From Paenibacillus riograndensis SBR5 (GTDB lineage: Bacteria; Bacillota; Bacilli; Paenibacillales; Paenibacillaceae): a stretch of DNA of 64,000 bases. The notes under the pieces were generated by a model that ran no database searches, had not been told where the DNA came from, and worked only from the letters and a program-made list of their open reading frames with translations. The stretch lies in NCBI RefSeq assembly GCF_000981585.1, contig NZ_LN831776.1, forward strand, positions 6,431,187 through 6,495,186, given 5' to 3'. The translations under genes were made by a program, and so were the position numbers. Each line of letters begins with the position of its first letter. Position 1 is the first letter of the stretch. Below, in pieces: positions 201 through 60,010 of the stretch.

Positions 201-1178
201 ATGACTTATTCGTTTGTAATCAGCCCGGTGTCCGTACAGGATTTTGAGAGCGAAGATGAGCTGATCGAGCGCTGCAAGGAATGGAATCTTTTGTCCAGTA
301 CAGCTACCCGGGTAAAAACTTATCTGTACAAGCGGCAAGGGCTCACGCTGCCTTGTGAAATTGTCGGATACGTGGATCCGCAGACCGTTGTGATTCAGTT
401 TGAGAATAAGCAGCAGCACTGCATTCATCCCGCTTATCTAAAAGAAATGCAGACCGCCGCCTTCGGCTCAAGGGCAGGCGCAGCTTCCGATGCGGTGAAG
501 ACGGAGGACTCCGGGACCTCTCCTGAAGAGGTTATCGCGGAAGACAGGGATGCCGACGCTGCAGATGCAGCACCCGGAGCTGAAGGGGACGAAAACGTCC
601 AGGCCGCAGCCGAAACATCTGCAGGCACTGGGGCAGCTGCAGCAGTAGCTGGGGCAGGGGCGGGTGCTGAGGCAGATGCAGCAACTGTCGCTGGAGCTGG
701 TGCTGCTGTTGCCGGGGCAGGTGCTGCTGTTGCCGGGGCAGGTGCTGCTGTTGCCGGGGCAGGTGCTGCTGTTGCCGGGGCAGGTGCTGCCGAGGTAGAT
801 GCGACAGTTGCTGGGGCAGCACCTGCCGATGAAACGCCGGAGGCTCCGAAGAAGCCTGCTAAATCCAAAAAGAAGCCGGCCCTTGTCCTGCCGGACGAGA
901 AACTCCAGATGACAGCCACTGTCAAAGAGTTCACAACCGTGCCCAATCATTTCTCGGATAACGACGACGAGGTAATTATTTATGACGTGGTGACCGTGGA
1001 GGGACAAGATCTTGCCATCGAGGAGGTCTGGTCCAGCCACAGCGCCACGCTGAAAAAGCTGGAGCTGGCCGTCGGCGATACTCTCTCCTTCGAGGCAAAG
1101 ATCGTCGCCAAAAAGCTTACCCAGCATCCGGTCAAATACAAAATCAACAACCCGTCCAAGATAAAAAAAGTGGACTAG
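201..1178 (+). CDS. hypothetical protein with Ala/Gly repeat linker
   Basis: A 325-residue cytoplasmic-looking protein without signal peptide or membrane segment; I do not recognise the family. Residues 1-90 form a compact domain (start MTYSFVISPVSVQDFE, with CEIVGYVDPQTVVIQF). Residues about 90-225 are an acidic then Ala/Gly-rich linker that includes four near-perfect copies of the heptapeptide VAGAGAA, encoded by an almost identical 21-bp DNA unit at 690-795. After a Lys/Pro-rich stretch (KKPAKSKKKPA) the last 95 residues look like a folded beta-rich domain, possibly OB-fold-like, but this is only an impression. An AGAGGGTGA-like ribosome site precedes the ATG. It stands alone and is followed by a GC-rich hairpin. 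The DNA-level identity of the repeats suggests recent slippage, so linker length probably varies between strains. Confidence 0.75.
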   Translation: MTYSFVISPVSVQDFESEDELIERCKEWNLLSSTATRVKTYLYKRQGLTLPCEIVGYVDPQTVVIQFENKQQHCIHPAYLKEMQTAAFGSRAGAASDAVKTEDSGTSPEEVIAEDRDADAADAAPGAEGDENVQAAAETSAGTGAAAAVAGAGAGAEADAATVAGAGAAVAGAGAAVAGAGAAVAGAGAAVAGAGAAEVDATVAGAAPADETPEAPKKPAKSKKKPALVLPDEKLQMTATVKEFTTVPNHFSDNDDEVIIYDVVTVEGQDLAIEEVWSSHSATLKKLELAVGDTLSFEAKIVAKKLTQHPVKYKINNPSKIKKVD

Positions 1179-1201
1179 CCGTCTATATGCAGTACGAACC
1201 A

Positions 1202-1229
1202 GCCCCGGGCGCTTCAACCAGCCCGGGGT
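1202..1229 (+). terminator. terminator-like hairpin
   Basis: CCCCGGGC pairs with GCCCGGGG across a 10-nt loop, 25 bases after the preceding stop codon. It is followed only by GGTTCTTC, so the U-tract is weak. Confidence 0.5.
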
Positions 1230-1237
1230 TCTTCAAC

Positions 1238-1513
1238 AACGGTATTTTTGCCGTTGTTTCGGAGCAAACCCGTCTCGCGGGCTCCAGCAACGGCACTTTT
1301 GCCGTTATTTCGGGGCGAACCCATCTCGCGGGCTTCAACAACGGCATTTTTGCCGTTGTTTCGGAGCAAACTCGCCTCGCGGGCTCCAGTAACGGCATTT
1401 TTGCCGTTGTTTCGGAGCAAACCCGTCTCGCGGGCTCCAGCAACGGCACTTTTGCCGTTGTTTTGAAGCAAACCCGCCGGCGGCGCTTCAGTAACGGCAC
1501 TTTTGCCGTTGTT
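1238..1513. repeat. 51-bp hairpin array 1 (six copies)
   Basis: Six copies start at 1238, 1289, 1340, 1391, 1442 and 1493, exactly 51 bases apart. Each has a perfect or near-perfect dyad of the form AACGGCAnTTTTGCCGTT, then a linker of about 30 bases containing GAGCAAACCCGTCTCGCG that is similar throughout this array. Because 51 is divisible by three, several frames stay open, which creates spurious ORFs. Confidence 0.9.
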
Positions 1514-1718
1514 GGTATACACCGTTCACCACGGCAGTGCAGCCGTCTTGGATTTCATTCTAGCGTTTGCCTAAAGAACGACTCTCCATGAACCCCACGG
1601 CAACTTTAAGTGGAAAAAGGATAACTAATTTGCTTGCTCACCCTTTTTTTCGGTAGTGTCAAGAAGTTTGTGTAAGAGTAGAGTATCTCTTTGGATTGTA
1701 TCTTTTTAGGGTGTAGGG

Positions 1719-1756
1719 GGGTTGTGGGTGCGGGGGTACCCCCGCACCCACAACCC
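1719..1756. terminator. 38-bp perfect palindrome in the IS end
   Basis: A perfect 38-bp palindrome centred on GTAC (half site reads GGGTTGTGGGTGCGGGGGTA), 10 bases downstream of the transposase stop. It could terminate transposase mRNA or block read-through from flanking genes; no U-run follows. Confidence 0.5.
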
Positions 1757-1766
1757 TGCAAACGCT

Positions 1767-2960
1767 CTACTCTGCGGCCTGTGGTTCGGCCATCGAATAG
1801 CGTTCGTCAAATAACTTGCTGAGTTCCTTTTTCACCGTATCCATCCCAAACCCAGGCACCACTCGGTCCGCAAACCGTTCATTGTAGGCCGTTGCTTCCA
1901 AATATACGATTTTCTCAGCTGCATCCATGTTCGTGAGACTGTTCATGGGCTTGAGTCGCTTCCGAATTTCCTTGTTCATTCGCTCGATCGGGTTCGACGT
2001 GTAGATCGCTTTGTGGATTTCCACAGGGTACTTGTAGAATGTCAGCAGCGTGGACAACTGTTCTTCCCATGAGGCTATTTCCTTCGGGTACAGCTTGCTC
2101 CACTTGGCTTTCACGGTATCGAATGCGGCCCGGGCTACCTCCTCATCCGGCGCGGTGTATACCGTCTTCAGGGCTTCAATGACGTCAGTCTTGTGTTCGA
2201 CCCGGATTTTGGGAAACGTGGCCCGTACCTTGTGCACCACGCAATGCTGCACATCCGCTTTGGGGTACATTTCTTTAAAGGCGGCATCCAGGCCCGGGAG
2301 TCCGTCAAATACACCCAGAAGCACTTCCTGCGCTCCGCGGTTGTACAGATCTTTGAGGACCTCCCGCCAGCCGTTTGAACTCTCTTGACCACCGACGTAG
2401 AACCCAAGGATTTGACGATGTCCCTCTTCGTCGATGCCCATCGCAAAATAGATGACTTCCCCACTGACGGTCCCGCGTCTGAGCTTCACGTACAGCCCGT
2501 CCAGGTAAATCACAGCGTAGCGTTTGGCGAGCGGACGGGACTGCCAGTTCTGAATATCCTCCAGCACCGTAGCCGTAATGTTGCTCACGGTCGCTGCGGA
2601 ATAATGACTGCCGAACATACTTTCAATGAAACGGGCCACGTCCCGTGTACCCATGCCGCTTTTGTACATCTGGATGACCGCCTCTTCCAGCCAGCCGTCT
2701 CTGCGTTGGTAGGGCTCGAACACTTGGGTCTGGTAGTACCCTTTACGGTCTCTAGGCACCTCCAGATCCTCCAAATGACCGTATTTGGTATGCAGATCCC
2801 GCTTGTAATATCCATTGCGGCTGTTACGTACACCCACTTGCTCATTCTCCATGAAGTACTGAATCTCAGCCCTCATGATGGATTCCAGGTGGTCTTTGAC
2901 AAACGTAGTGACAAGATTTTCAAATAGATTATTCAGCATATTTTCGGGTACAATAGTCAT
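1767..2960 (-). CDS. IS256-family transposase (mutator type)
   Basis: A 397-residue DDE transposase of the IS256/mutator family, full length for the group and without frameshift, so possibly active. The catalytic triad appears as Asp154 (YLDGLY), Asp219 (VFDGLPGLD) and Glu326 (NPIERMNKEIRKR). The C/H motif DVQHCVVHKVR, usual between the second Asp and the Glu, lies at about residues 236-246. The N-terminal 130 residues carry the helical DNA-binding part (GTRDVARFIESMFG). An AAAGGAA ribosome site precedes the ATG. It is the only gene of the element and lies between the inverted repeats described for the IS. Confidence 0.95.
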   Translation of the reverse strand: MTIVPENMLNNLFENLVTTFVKDHLESIMRAEIQYFMENEQVGVRNSRNGYYKRDLHTKYGHLEDLEVPRDRKGYYQTQVFEPYQRRDGWLEEAVIQMYKSGMGTRDVARFIESMFGSHYSAATVSNITATVLEDIQNWQSRPLAKRYAVIYLDGLYVKLRRGTVSGEVIYFAMGIDEEGHRQILGFYVGGQESSNGWREVLKDLYNRGAQEVLLGVFDGLPGLDAAFKEMYPKADVQHCVVHKVRATFPKIRVEHKTDVIEALKTVYTAPDEEVARAAFDTVKAKWSKLYPKEIASWEEQLSTLLTFYKYPVEIHKAIYTSNPIERMNKEIRKRLKPMNSLTNMDAAEKIVYLEATAYNERFADRVVPGFGMDTVKKELSKLFDERYSMAEPQAAE

Positions 2961-3072
2961 CGAGTAGGGTTCCTTTCTTGGTGGTTTCGCAATCCCGAGA
3001 ATACCCTACTTTTTTGTTGCCTGCTAGGCTCCAAATCTTGGTACACAACTTACTTTACGCCATCTTTTTTTC

Positions 3073-3250
3073 AGCAGATGAAGTGGAAAAAGGTACACTA
3101 ATTCAGCTCATTTCGCCTTTGGACGAGGAATTTATCCCCATTAAGTTTACTTATTCCATCTAATTCTCAGAATTTTTGAATTCCGGGAAAAATAAGCTCC
3201 CTTTTTTCCAACTAGCGCTTGCAAAACGGCCGGTGAGCAAGCGCTAGTTG
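3073..3250. repeat. dispersed GTGGAAAAAGG repeat, copy near IS
   Basis: This stretch begins CAGATGAAGTGGAAAAAGG and continues through ACTAATTCAGCTCATTTCGCC and a CCGGGAAAAATAAG block. It closely matches 24264-24440. The part left of the IS (1545-1640) matches 24150-24245. Together they look like one composite repeat split by the insertion. Confidence 0.8.
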
Positions 3251-3318
3251 GAATGAGGAGATCTAGACTGATCCCTCAACTTCATAATTTCCAAGATTCG
3301 GGACTTCACCGGTTCAAC

Positions 3319-3435
3319 AACGGCACTTTTGCCGAACAATCTAGTCTGCGGGACTTCATCAACGGCATTTCTGCCGTTGTTTCGGAGCGAATCCGCCTCG
3401 TGGGCTTCATCAACGCACTTTTGCCGTTGTTGATC
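3319..3435. repeat. 51-bp hairpin array 2 (three copies)
   Basis: Three hairpin units of the AACGGCAnTTTTGCCGTT type start at 3319, 3361 and 3412. The last spacing is 51 bases. The first is 42 because the right arm of the first hairpin and part of its linker are deleted. Linkers resemble those of array 1 (TTTCGGAGCGAATCC). Confidence 0.85.
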
Positions 3436-3462
3436 CAAAAAAGCCAGGCTGCGCATACATGG

Positions 3463-3813
3463 TTCCCCCCGTATACGCAGCCTAGCTTCTATTCCCGGGT
3501 TCCCCCGTATACGCAGCCTAGCCTCTATTCCCGGGTTCCCCTGTATACGCAGCCTAGCCTCTATTCTCGGGTTCCCCCCGTATACGCAGCCTAGCTTCTA
3601 TTCCCGGGTTCCCCCGTATACGCGGCCTGGCCTCTATTCCCGGGTTCCCCCGTATACGCAGCCTAGCTTCTATTCCCGGGTTCCCCCGTATACGCGGCCT
3701 GGCCTCTATTCCCGGGTTCCCCCGTATACGCAACCTAGCCTCTATTCTCGGGTTCCCCCGTATACGCAGCCTAGCCTCTATTCCCGGGTTCCCCTGTATA
3801 CCCGGCCTGGCCT
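3463..3813. repeat. 36-bp tandem repeat array (ten copies)
   Basis: Ten contiguous units start at 3471, 3507, 3543, 3580, 3616, 3652, 3688, 3724, 3760 and 3796 (36 bases apart, once 37). Each contains GTATACGCAGCCTAGC and the palindromes GTATAC and CCCGGG. Variation is limited to a few positions (CAGCCTAG or CGGCCTGG). The last unit runs into the stop codon of the minus-strand gene that ends at 3814. Confidence 0.9.
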
Positions 3814-4839
3814 CTATTCATCTGCTGCCGGGCGGGCAGCCTGCGTAACTGCCGCGAACATCGTCACCCCGCCGGGCTCCGGCCCGGTGACTTCCGCCCG
3901 CTCCCGGCGCACCAGCTCGGCCAGATGCGCCAGCGCCTCGCTCATCGCGAACCGCATCTGGTGCGCGCTGGACACGCGGCTGCGGAACAGCGCTTCGCAT
4001 ACCGCGAAGCCGCTGAGCGGGCCGCCCGCGAGCAGAGCGGCTGCCTGCTCCAGCCGCTCTTCGTGATGGCGCAGCAGGCTGTCCGCCCGCTCCGTGAAGC
4101 CCGTGAACGGTTCCCGGTGTCCCGGGAACGCACGGGTCACCCGGAGGCTGCGCAGCTCGCGCAGCCCCTCCAGGAAGGTGCGCAGCGGCTGCGGATCGCT
4201 GCCCGGCTGCAGGCTGACGTTGGGCGAGATCTGCGGCAGCACGGCATCGCCGCAGAGAATCAGCCCGCTGCCGCCGTGATAAAAGGACAAATGCCCCGGC
4301 GCATGTCCGCCGGTTACCAGCGGCTTCCATTTGCGGTTGCCCATGATGAACGGCTCTGCCGCGTTGATATAGGCTACCTCCGGCTGCGGGGTGACCTGGG
4401 GCAGGAAGCTCTCCAGATGCTCCCTGATTCCCTGTACCCAGTCCTCCGGCATGCCGTAGCGGAGGAAGAACAGCGGCAGCGCTTCATTCAGCATCCCTTC
4501 CGCTCCCCAGGTCAGCCGGGCTTCTTCGTGGGCCCGTTCCGACATCCAGACCTTGCCGCCGCTGCGGGCCTGCAGCCAGCCAGCAAGACCGTAGTGGTCC
4601 GGATGATGATGCGTCACCACGATATCCCGGATTGTGCTCCAGGAACAGTCCAGCTCCTGAAGCACAGCTTCCCATGCCGCTTCCGCCTCAGGCGTGTGCG
4701 GCCCGGGGTCAATCACCGTAAGCTGTCCGTTCCGGTCAGGCAGAATATAGCTGTTCACCTGGCGCAGCGGCGGAGCCATCGGAACTGAGAACTGGATAAT
4801 GCCGCCTTCCCATGTGGTCATGTTTGTCTTTGGCATCAT
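3814..4839 (-). CDS. MBL-fold metallo-hydrolase
   Basis: A metallo-beta-lactamase-fold hydrolase of about 341 residues. The metal-binding motif THHHPDHYG is clear, preceded by the fold's IDPGPHT strand and followed by GGHAPGHLSFY and CGDAVLP, which supply the later His and Asp ligands. The C-terminal third resembles the winged-helix-like extension seen in hydroxyacylglutathione-hydrolase-like and LACTB2-like proteins; the substrate cannot be told. An in-frame ATG at 4878 exists, but AGGGGAGG lies 10 bases before ATG 4839, which I prefer. It sits about 40 bases after a methyltransferase gene on the same strand and is probably cotranscribed. Its stop codon is embedded in the edge of the 36-bp repeat array. 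Confidence 0.85.
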   Translation of the reverse strand: MMPKTNMTTWEGGIIQFSVPMAPPLRQVNSYILPDRNGQLTVIDPGPHTPEAEAAWEAVLQELDCSWSTIRDIVVTHHHPDHYGLAGWLQARSGGKVWMSERAHEEARLTWGAEGMLNEALPLFFLRYGMPEDWVQGIREHLESFLPQVTPQPEVAYINAAEPFIMGNRKWKPLVTGGHAPGHLSFYHGGSGLILCGDAVLPQISPNVSLQPGSDPQPLRTFLEGLRELRSLRVTRAFPGHREPFTGFTERADSLLRHHEERLEQAAALLAGGPLSGFAVCEALFRSRVSSAHQMRFAMSEALAHLAELVRRERAEVTGPEPGGVTMFAAVTQAARPAADE

Positions 4840-8294: not shown

Positions 8295-9000
8295 AACCAC
8301 CCGTCCAACGGGTGGTTTGCTCTTGGGGTATAACCCCTTGTTGCCAAACTGCGCCTAAAGACGCTAGCCTGACAATAAATCGTTCAGGCTCAGTGTTGTT
8401 GTCCCTTTCACTTACCAGTTAAACTGGTTTACTTCTTCTTGCTACTGTTTCTACTGAACGGGTCTTCGTATTCTTTCACACTCAATTTATCAATCGCTTG
8501 GTCATGTGCTTCTTGTTCACGTATATATTTTGCTACTGTGGCTTCATTTAGGCCTACCGTGCTGACGTAGTATCCCTCCGCCCAAAATTTGCGATTGCCA
8601 TACTTATACTTTAAGCTGGCATGCTTCTCAAATATCATCAGGGAGCTCTTCCCCTTCAGATAGCCCATAAACGAGGATACTGAGATTTTGGGTGGGATCA
8701 CTACGAGCATATGTACATGATCTGGCATCATGTGACCTTCGATAATATCAACTCCCTTGTATTTACATAAACGTTTGAAGATTTCGATCAAGTCTTTTCT
8801 CACTTGATTATAGATCTCTTTCCGTCTATACTTCGGGGTGAATACAATGTGGTATTTGCACATCCACTTTGTGTGAGCCAAACTGTAGCTCTTGTTTGCC
8901 ATCTAAGACCATTCCTTTCCAATTGAGCCTGAACATCTCAATTTTATCGGAATGGTCTTGGTGGTCAAACCCTACATCCCTCCACCCGCATAGCGGGTGG
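8295..9000 (-). mobile_element. IS200/IS605-family element (tnpA only)
   Basis: A single tnpA gene lies between two subterminal hairpins: AACCACCCGT/ACGGGTGGTT at 8295-8317 and CCACCCGC/GCGGGTGG at 8982-9000. Such hairpins, not inverted repeats, are what HUH single-strand transposases recognise. There is no tnpB, as in IS200. The true ends, which need a short guide match, lie a few bases outside and were not fixed. It sits just downstream of the nif operon terminator. Confidence 0.8.
8429..8902 (-). CDS. tnpA: IS200/IS605-family transposase TnpA
   Basis: A 157-residue Y1 HUH transposase of normal length. The metal-binding HUH motif is DHVHMLV with His62 and His64, and the catalytic tyrosine is probably Tyr126 in ATVAKYIREQE. 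The N-terminal KYHIVFTPKYRRKEI is typical of the IS200 branch. It cuts and joins single-stranded DNA next to the hairpins that flank it here. An AAAGGAA ribosome site lies upstream of the ATG. The reading frame is intact, so the element may be functional. Confidence 0.95.
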   Translation of the reverse strand: MANKSYSLAHTKWMCKYHIVFTPKYRRKEIYNQVRKDLIEIFKRLCKYKGVDIIEGHMMPDHVHMLVVIPPKISVSSFMGYLKGKSSLMIFEKHASLKYKYGNRKFWAEGYYVSTVGLNEATVAKYIREQEAHDQAIDKLSVKEYEDPFSRNSSKKK

Positions 9001-24146: not shown

Positions 24147-24450
24147 CGGGACAGCGCAGCCGTCTTGGTTCTAGCGTTACCTGGAGAACGACTCCCCATG
24201 AATCCTACGGCAACTCTTTAAGTGGAAAAAGGTTAACTAATTTGCCGAAGTACCCTACCCTCGGGCAGATGAAGTGGAAAAAGGTACACTAATTCAGCTC
24301 ATTTCGCCATTGGACCGGAAATGTAGCCCAATTAGGTTCCATTTTTCCACTTAACTCTCAGGATTTCTTAATTTCCGGAAAAATAAGTTCCCTTTTTCCA
24401 ACTAGCACCTGCGAAGAAGCCGGTAAGTAAGCGTTAGTTGAAATTAGGAT
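24147..24450. repeat. dispersed GTGGAAAAAGG repeat, uninterrupted copy
   Basis: This carries in order CGCAGCCGTCTTGG, GAACGACTCCCCATGAATCC, AGTGGAAAAAGGTTAACTAA, a second AGTGGAAAAAGGTACACTAA and an AAAAATAAGTTCCC block. The same order is found at 1545-1640 plus 3073-3250 on either side of the IS256 element. Confidence 0.8.
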
Positions 24451-24492: not shown

Positions 24493-24564
24493 AACGGTAT
24501 TTCTGCTGTTATTTCTGGGCTAACCGGCCTTCGGCACTCCAACAACGGTATTTCTGCCGTTGTT
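24493..24564. repeat. 51-bp hairpin array 3 (two copies)
   Basis: Two hairpins, AACGGTATTTCTGCTGTT and AACGGTATTTCTGCCGTT, begin at 24493 and 24544, again 51 bases apart. The linker (CTGGGCTAACCGGCCTTCGG) differs from those of the other arrays. Confidence 0.8.
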
Positions 24565-58910: not shown

Positions 58911-59345
58911 AACGGCATTTCTGCCGTTGTTAGAGGTTACTTTTACGTGAGTGGCAGATTTAACGGCAGTTTTGCCGTTGTTGAGTACGACTGGTGCGGG
59001 AGCGACGGATTTAACGGCAGTTCTGCCGTTGTTGAGTGCGACTGGTGCGGGAGCGGCGGATTTAACGGCAGTTTTGCCGTTGTTAGGGTACGACTGGTGC
59101 GGGAGCGGCGGATTTAACAGCATTTTTGCCGTTGTTGGGTGCGACTGGTGCGGGAGCGACGGATTTAACGGCAGTTTTGCCGTTGTTGAGTACGACTGGT
59201 GCGGACGTGGCGGATTTAACGGCATTTTTGCCGTTGTTGAGTACGACTGGTGCGGACGTGGCGGATTTAACGGCATTTTTGCTGTTGTTGGGTGCGACTG
59301 GTGCGGACGTGGCGGATTTAACGGCATTTTTGCCGTTGTTTCGGA
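58911..59345. repeat. 51-bp hairpin array 4 (nine copies)
   Basis: Hairpins of the AACGGCAnTTTTGCCGTT type begin at 58911, 58962, 59013, 59064, 59116, 59167, 59218, 59269 and 59320; the period is 51 bases, once 52. The linker is conserved within this array (GAGTACGACTGGTGCGG...GGATTT) and unlike those of arrays 1-3. It ends about 120 bases upstream of the epimerase start and would lie in or before its leader. Confidence 0.92.
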
Positions 59346-59399: not shown

Positions 59400-60010
59400 T
59401 AGGTGGAAAAAGTAAACTTAATTAGGCAATTTTTGTCCGTTAGATGCAAAATGGGCTGAAATAGTGATACTTTTTCCACTTAGTTTGGGTAACGCAGGGC
59501 TATCGAGCAAATTAGTGATACTTTTTCCACTTCACCCAACCAAGGCGCATCGTGAGGATGCATCATTCCTTATACAAACTTCTTAACAATCTGAGCCTGG
59601 CGCGCCGGTGGCGGAGCTAATGAAACTTCGGCCGGATTAGTGATACTTTTTCCACTTCACCCAACCAAGGCGCATCGAAAGGATACGTCGTTCCTTATAC
59701 AAACTTCTTAACAACCTGAGCCCGGCGCGCCGATGGCGGAATTAATGAAACTTCGGCCGGATTAGTGATACTTTTTCCACTTCACCCAACCATGGCGCAT
59801 CGTGAGGATGCGTACGTTCCTTATACAAACTTCTTAACAACCTAAGCCTGGCGCGCCGATGGCGGAGCTAATGAAACTTCGGCCGGATTAGTGGTACTTT
59901 TTCCACTTCACCCAACCAAGGCGTATCGAGAGGATGCGTACGTTGCTTATACAAACTTCTTAACAACCTAAGCCTGGCGCGCCGATGGCGGAGCTAATGA
60001 AACTTAGGCC
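59400..60010. repeat. 125-bp tandem repeat, about four copies
   Basis: Units that begin ATTAGTGATACTTTTTCCAC start at 59511, 59636, 59761 and 59887 (125, 125, 126 apart). Each continues through CACCCAACCAAGGCG, CTTATACAAACTTCTTAACAA and GGCGCGCC. The opening motif is the reverse complement of the AAGTGGAAAAAGG...ACTAAT motif beside arrays 1-3. The stretch 60011-60345 has degenerate GGCGCGC/GTGGCGGA remnants and one AACGGC/GCCGTT hairpin (60247-60262). No gene is seen in 58791-60345. Confidence 0.85.

Follow-up and report, generated by a model that had tools for sequence, protein, structure and literature searches.

Arrays of a 51-bp palindromic unit in Paenibacillus riograndensis SBR5 and its relatives follow replication in their orientation. 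Five genomes were sampled for their main stem family, and all 111 loci (111/111) had the T-rich centre of the palindrome on the lagging-sense strand; orthologous arrays are of common ancestry and the species are not independent. We see about an even chance that the arrays arose by local amplification of an intergenic DNA element that is polar with respect to replication and would be read as a series of dyads by a putative protein sensing the direction of the centre.

The window, the whole 64,000-nucleotide stretch of DNA that was analysed, contains four intergenic arrays of a dyad of the form AACAACGGCA-NTTY-TGCCGTTGTT:

1238..1510, + strand: array 1, six dyads at 1238, 1289, 1340, 1391, 1442 and 1493, period 51 bp throughout; intergenic, with gene 201-1178 (+) on one side and the convergent gene 1767-2960 (-) on the other; the T-rich centre is on +, which is the lagging-sense strand
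1256..1288, + strand: example of a linker, 33 bp, completing the 51-bp unit of array 1
3319..3428, + strand: array 2, three dyads at 3319, 3361 and about 3412; intergenic, T-rich centre on +
24493..24561, + strand: array 3, two dyads at 24493 and 24544, spacing 51 bp; intergenic, T-rich centre on +
58911..59337, + strand: array 4, nine dyads at intervals of 51, 51, 51, 52, 51, 51, 51 and 51 bp

The arrays described by the sequence-only reading are thus real, and their 6, 3, 2 and 9 copies were found again. The word AACGGCANTTTTGCCGTT matched at 20 places in the window with up to 3 mismatches (33 matches when both strands are counted, 0.23 expected). Each unit consists of an 18-bp dyad core and a 33-bp linker. 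The 51-base period, earlier ascribed to all four arrays, holds in arrays 1 and 3, but array 2 is irregular, with intervals of 42 and then about 51 bp and one base missing in the third dyad, and array 4 has one interval of 52 bp. Array 3 contains the stem variants GGTA and GCTG. Array 4 is intergenic, flanked by two - strand (leading-strand) genes, and has its T-rich centre on +. The dyad is asymmetric, NTTY at the centre of one strand being RAAN on its complement; all 20 copies in the window have NTTY on +. By inspection of the consensus of 116 arrays, it is mainly preceded by (C/T)(C/T)CAAC and followed by (G/A)TTTC.

The linkers had been described as homogeneous within an array and different between arrays. 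They are alike within arrays (mean pairwise divergence 0.10-0.15), but between arrays they are not unrelated: in-register identity averaged 0.51 over a set of 116 arrays from several species, compared with 0.28 for shuffled linkers, and arrays 1 and 2 of the window have, by eye, much linker sequence in common. The sequence-only reading overlooked the replication polarity and the existence of further stem families. Two other tandem repeats lie close by: a 36-bp repeat array of about 10 copies (3461-3819) directly adjoins array 2, and four copies of a 126-bp repeat containing the ATTAGTGATACTTTTTCCACTT motif (59511-60010) are located near array 4.

The genome of SBR5 (G000; one contig of 7,919,576 bp) contained 123 forward and 113 reverse matches to the dyad at up to 2 mismatches, 236 in total, of which a few near-symmetric copies may count on both strands; the reversed pattern, used as a control at the same threshold, gave 5+3 = 8. 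Spacings were mostly 51 bp rather than random. Among intervals shorter than 80 bp between neighbouring copies of this stem family (family A), exactly 51 bp was found in 59/66 cases in the fetched stretches of SBR5, in 122/133 in the relative G030 and in 486/512 in the GTDB loci, which upholds the fixed spacing constraint proposed earlier. Tandem arrays in these genomes that do not have this period have many other ones. The dyad was present in relatives well beyond the four arrays of the window, with 97+126 copies in G015. On the other hand, with up to 1 mismatch allowed family A was absent from 39 of 100 relatives, which we count against the landmark reading set out below.

For the polarity analysis, the origin of SBR5 was placed by a dnaA match beginning at base 328, and the GC skew changes sign at 4.10-4.20 Mb. 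All 100 matches listed, of the 236, were polar: up to 4.03 Mb they fall on the - strand, from 4.34 Mb onwards on the + strand. This places NTTY on the lagging-sense strand and RAAN on the leading strand. Of 126 copies (up to 2 mismatches) in the window and 60 fetched stretches, 125 were polar, and the lone non-agreeing copy is a tie, as its mutated loop fits both strands equally. Copies at exactly 3 mismatches divided into 10 that agreed and 6 that disagreed, as expected if many of them are chance matches. Perfect hairpins with A-closed NTTY loops were found 97 times in the lagging sense and never (0) in the other, among the loop types listed.

By loci, polarity was complete in SBR5 (50/50, including all 21 single-copy loci). 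The main stem families of the relatives behaved similarly: 14/14 loci and 182/182 copies in G001, 26/26 loci and 150/150 copies in G022, 12/12 loci and 150/150 copies in G030, all of these on one (right) arm, and 9/9 loci and 48/49 copies in G033, where the odd copy lies inside an otherwise uniform array. Stretches were picked from the match lists without regard to orientation. A search for dif with a consensus sequence found nothing, and termini were therefore taken from the GC skew or, for HW567 and G033, as the place opposite dnaA. Local skew fitted the assumed arms in G033 (8/8 stretches) and also in G001 and G022. Orientation served as a predictor in G033, where the strand of the matches (50 listed of 131) switched from + to - in the interval 1.62-2.19 Mb; the origin was predicted to lie there before the result of the dnaA search was seen, and dnaA was found at 1,870,658. 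Abundance did not rise towards the terminus, the terminus-proximal half having 17/44 and 8/17 loci and, among the matches listed, 7/14 and 10/20 loci (the latter on one arm). Reverse-reading single copies inside uniform arrays were seen in L068 (at about 2602) and at G033:C1:654381; the linkers of L068 are not inverted, as if the hairpin alone had flipped.

Gene context, determined with our own simple gene finder, separated replication from transcription. All 50 loci of SBR5 (50/50) lie outside predicted genes; the neighbouring genes are both leading-strand in 23 cases, convergent in 24, both lagging-strand in 3 and divergent in none (0). In the 27 convergent or lagging-lagging loci transcription would leave the orientation free or would reverse it, and all 27 (27/27) follow replication; we conclude that array orientation follows replication, not transcription. 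The same holds when relatives are included, since every locus that was not in the leading-leading context was polar nevertheless (27 in SBR5, 6 in G001, 14 in G022 and 5 in G033; 52/52). G030 was left out of this count as 3 of its 12 loci overlap open frames running through the arrays. Among the relatives 58/61 loci were intergenic, and the other 3 overlap open frames of this kind. Array orientation thus tracks replication where transcription would not impose a direction, and the polarity is independent of the flanking genes.

The 51-bp period is common to five stem families, and polarity is clear in four of the five. Arrays with other stems were found in the relatives by Tandem Repeats Finder, and their intervals (below 80 bp) were exactly 51 bp in 43/48 (family B), 9/11 (D), 26/27 (E) and 15/15 cases (F). 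Family B, GAGGTANTTYTACCTC, was polar in 40/40 exact copies of G030 and in 51/62 copies of SBR5, corresponding to 14/15 loci. The exception, an 11-copy array at 6,590,607-6,591,132 where the GC skew is normal, counts against the landmark reading. This array (L272, G000:C1:6590607-6591132) consists of 11 near-identical family B units and adjoins a normally oriented family A pair. Family D (G022) and family E (G001) were polar in 100/100 copies each among the matches listed, of 189 and 213, respectively. Family F, from G069, which belongs to another family of the order, has the 51-bp period, and 5 of its 8 short stretches agree with the local skew; the skews of the other three were 0.028, 0.049 and -0.008.

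Within arrays of at least 4 units the stem changed about five times more slowly than the linker (69/7009 = 1.0% and 590/11899 = 5.0%, respectively, anchoring on copies with up to 1 mismatch, which lowers stem divergence somewhat). Laxer anchoring (up to 3 mismatches, both orientations mixed) gave a similar contrast, 0.7-1.3% for the stem and 7.0% for the linker. At the centre, the TT changed in 5/993 cases (0.5%), N in 29/446 (6.5%) and Y in 3.2%. Covariation was assessed in 495 distinct units, for which the only requirements were the core GGNANTTNTNCC and a neighbour at a distance of 50-52 bp; in many of them pairs outside the core varied jointly. Pair 2 was C-G in 293 and T-A in 67 units, pair 5 C-G in 355 and A-T in 79, and pair 6 A-T in 347 and G-C in 39. 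Pairing is imperfect: pairs 2, 6 and 8 were Watson-Crick in 74%, 78% and 51% of the units, and a G-A mismatch occurred in 60.

The intergenic location, the phased dyads, the directional centre, the change of stems with pairing mostly kept and the lack of a terminus gradient fit the picture of a DNA signpost. The unit is a palindrome with arms of 7-12 bp around an asymmetric centre, A-NTT(Y/A)-T, together with a linker of about 33 bp; the arms differ in sequence from family to family, while most of the pairing is preserved. Most probably the unit functions as DNA, presenting a row of equally phased dyads to a putative protein, which would also sense the direction of the centre, so that an array might signal the direction of the fork or of the terminus. 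A candidate reader would be a structure- or dyad-reading protein that travels with the fork, loads behind it or is guided by it. We infer that a protein reads the arrays, that they have a role in fork management, compaction or segregation, and that the wrong orientation is selected against. The earlier proposal of equally spaced DNA dyads for a protein remains the best reading and the spacing held, but no protein was found in a search limited to Y1 transposases. More tentatively, and with probability clearly below even, the arrays may be landmarks of shape and phase, in which a lineage-specific stem, a constant 51-bp step, an A-NTT-T centre and a single direction relative to the fork would be recognized by a putative fork- or segregation-associated reader.

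The main rival is polar insertion of a non-autonomous mobile palindrome without a host role, inserting as single-stranded DNA hairpins into the lagging-strand template as IS200/IS605 and perhaps REPs do; we regard it as possible though rather unlikely. Lagging-strand targeting, which is described for IS608 and ISDra2 (PMC6006769), would give perfect replichore polarity; the families are dispersed, intergenic and lineage-specific, and single copies are as polar as arrays. Y1 matches (PF01797) number 12 and 11 in the array-rich genomes SBR5 and G033, but in the 60 relatives searched their counts do not follow those of family A. G015, with its 97+126 copies, has one Y1 match, which is broken by stops; G030 has one and G027 four, whereas G029 has 8 Y1 matches and 0 copies of family A, the stem searched for there. 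A RAYT/Y1 transposase was therefore rejected as the driver, there being no clear correlation with the number of family A copies although SBR5 and G033 are rich in Y1. One of the 12 Y1 matches of SBR5, an IS200-type transposase gene, lies in the window (8429-8902, -).

Stem constraint inside arrays and retention at orthologous sites also require more than insertion. Comparing SBR5 with relatives, dyads were present on both sides in 49 of 56 directed comparisons and absent from the partner in 7. Orientation relative to the flanks was the same in 47/49, the other two being the L152/L053 pair seen both ways. Copy numbers at orthologous sites vary freely (1 and 13, 2 and 17, 9 and 4); the site of array 4, with 9 copies here, has 4, 6, 8 and 14 in relatives. 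These differences bear out the local amplification inferred earlier from the window.

Reverse-oriented arrays of up to 20 copies exist, which speaks against polar insertion. By local GC skew 15 of 76 GTDB arrays (at least 2 copies, |skew| > 0.04) were discordant: 10/27 in S150, 5/25 in HW567, 0/23 in P. jilunlii and 0/1 in P. helianthi. The figure for unfiltered GTDB loci was 26/120. We count these arrays against the landmark reading. When the array pieces of HW567 were placed on its scaffold, where dnaA is at 6.197 Mb and the terminus was assumed to lie opposite, 24/29 agreed, and L053, L079, L085, L111 and L137 were discordant. L053 and L079 have both flanks in common and, by eye, inverted ends; L111 has the upstream flank in common; and L053, L079 and L085 have one linker type in common, which is also found in one concordant member. 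L137 has no common flank or other such feature that we could see, which again counts against the landmark reading. In S150 all ten discordant arrays (10/10) have a flank of at least 60 bp in common with another locus, and for several of them long flanks are common to loci of both orientations. Common flanks occur also at concordant arrays (69/150 flank sides, compared with 26/44 for discordant ones), a further point against.

L053 and L079 in HW567 and L056, L088, L091, L101, L147 and L148 in S150 are apparently larger dispersed elements that have 51-bp arrays inside them and are found in both orientations. Since the carried arrays point both ways, the orientation of the others is suggested to be kept by selection; the pattern, seen in few elements, fits selection better than polar insertion. 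Discordant arrays are perhaps younger, the difference being weak: nearest-locus linker identity was 0.84 compared with 0.77 for concordant arrays (p=0.017), and within-array divergence 0.103 compared with 0.145 (p=0.09). Loop inversion alone was rejected, by eye, as the source of discordant arrays, as the linkers run in the same sense as the centres; isolated hairpin-only inversions do occur.

It is unlikely that the arrays are transcribed 3′ hairpins of the upstream leading-strand gene, acting as terminators, RNA stabilisers or insulators against head-on transcription. The positions are suggestive, 47/50 loci of SBR5 following the end of a leading-strand gene and none being divergent, and in the sense of the T-rich centre the stem is followed by a T-rich RTTTC tail. 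But orientation picks the leading-strand gene in 24/24 convergent loci, the 3 lagging-lagging loci oppose transcription, and 3/14 loci of G001 are divergent. No strand-specific wobble excess was seen: C>T and G>A changes numbered 15 and 12 in stems and 104 and 69 in linkers (p=0.68). As the proportions in stems equal those in linkers, neither strand looks like folded RNA. The terminator scan of window positions 1000-3600 called no unit of arrays 1 and 2, and Rfam gave no match at the gathering score in the window. With no wobble asymmetry, no terminator call in arrays 1 and 2 and an orientation that follows replication, the earlier suggestion of a transcribed string of stem-loops found no support.

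Replication slippage, by which a hairpin would expand on one template strand only and thus survive as arrays in one orientation, seems quite improbable. Copy number does change at conserved sites, and for two hairpins, tested as single-stranded DNA, the folding energies were -10.5 to -11.7 kcal/mol; but the difference in folding energy between the strands is only 0.6 kcal/mol, the single-copy loci are polar too (21/21), and discordant arrays are no shorter than the others (15 arrays with a mean of 8.9 copies, compared with 5.9 in 61).

It is very improbable that the arrays encode a 17-residue repeat or belong to a CRISPR system: 51 bp equal 17 codons and many frames are open, but change shows no codon periodicity (0.046, 0.050, 0.053), 1-base length changes break the frame, frame openness stems mostly from column composition, and the linkers recur within arrays and are not unique spacers. 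The excess of open frames over a linker-shuffle null was mostly gone under a column-shuffle null (113 vs 103.6, sd 3.0; 109 vs 104.0, sd 2.6; 98 vs 89.4, sd 3.3; 103 vs 91.4, sd 3.2; opposite direction 28 vs 36.0, sd 3.3), and we put the residual deviations down to related arrays. The coding repeat was rejected on this result and on the lack of codon periodicity.

An internal contrast to the arrays comes from AAGTGGAAAAAG, also an abundant repeat word, which is distributed 50:30 between the strands and occurs in 25/50 array-bearing intergenic regions of SBR5, at no fixed place. Flank words were common to 12/50 loci downstream and 11/50 upstream. With AAGTGGAAAAAG at no fixed place and flank words in these 12 and 11 loci only, a whole-element explanation was rejected, although some loci, a minority, may be parts of a single larger module. 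AAGTGGAAAAAGG marks a second family of intergenic repeats, often close to arrays, at 24200-24400 of the window and in 25 of the 50 array-bearing intergenic regions; it is only weakly polar (50:30). Other abundant words were strand-biased in the fetched stretches of SBR5 (AAGTTCCCTTTT 18:2, CAGTTCCAAACT 16:1), and further polar repeat families may exist in this genome.

BOX elements of pneumococcus are intergenic repeats with a tandem, variable-number middle module. They resemble those array loci that have common flank words (12/50 downstream, 11/50 upstream), but most array loci lack such words and the sequences are not known to be related. Intrinsic terminators have a GC-rich stem with a run of T after it, and in the scan of window positions 1000-3600 no unit of arrays 1 and 2 was called as one. 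STAR elements of Staphylococcus aureus are similar in combining a short motif with spacers, in intergenic location, in variable copy number and in having no known function. They form tandem repeats of about 50 nt with 40-44 bp spacers that are alike within a locus and distinct between loci (PMC3532100). The array linkers are also alike within arrays, but an 18-bp core is combined with a 33-bp linker rather than with 40-44 bp, and by inspection the 14-bp STAR motif T(G/A/T)TGTTG(G/T)GGCCC(C/A) is absent from the consensus of the array unit. The word orientation does not occur in the main text of PMC3532100, so replichore polarity is not described there.

REP/BIME elements are, according to PMC3733652, short intergenic palindromes in many copies, mostly downstream of coding regions and sometimes clustered. 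The arrays share the intergenic location (50/50 loci), but their consensus (116 arrays, by inspection) contains no GTAG or CGTC tag, they show no link to Y1 transposases, and their units follow one another head-to-tail, all in one direction and at a constant 51-bp step, whereas in REP families head-tail dimers are described there as absent or under-represented. A replichore strand bias is shared with KOPS and AIMS (PMC5993296), and KOPS are read as DNA by FtsK (PMC2680272). The arrays differ from these in being long palindromes in intergenic arrays, not scattered octamers, and in showing no rise towards the terminus. No title or abstract listed in a search of mainly non-subscription literature described such an element.

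Bacteria commonly carry interspersed palindromic repeats and tandem repeats between their genes, many of them without known function. The arrays stand out in that the replichores can be told apart by array orientation alone, which also predicted where the origin of a relative lies, and in that stem families differing in sequence keep to one period and one direction. This makes an unexplained class of repeats testable. If a reader exists, the arrays may represent a new polar DNA-reading system in Firmicutes; if it is insertion that is polar, they would be a strong record, left by nature, of an element directed to the lagging strand.
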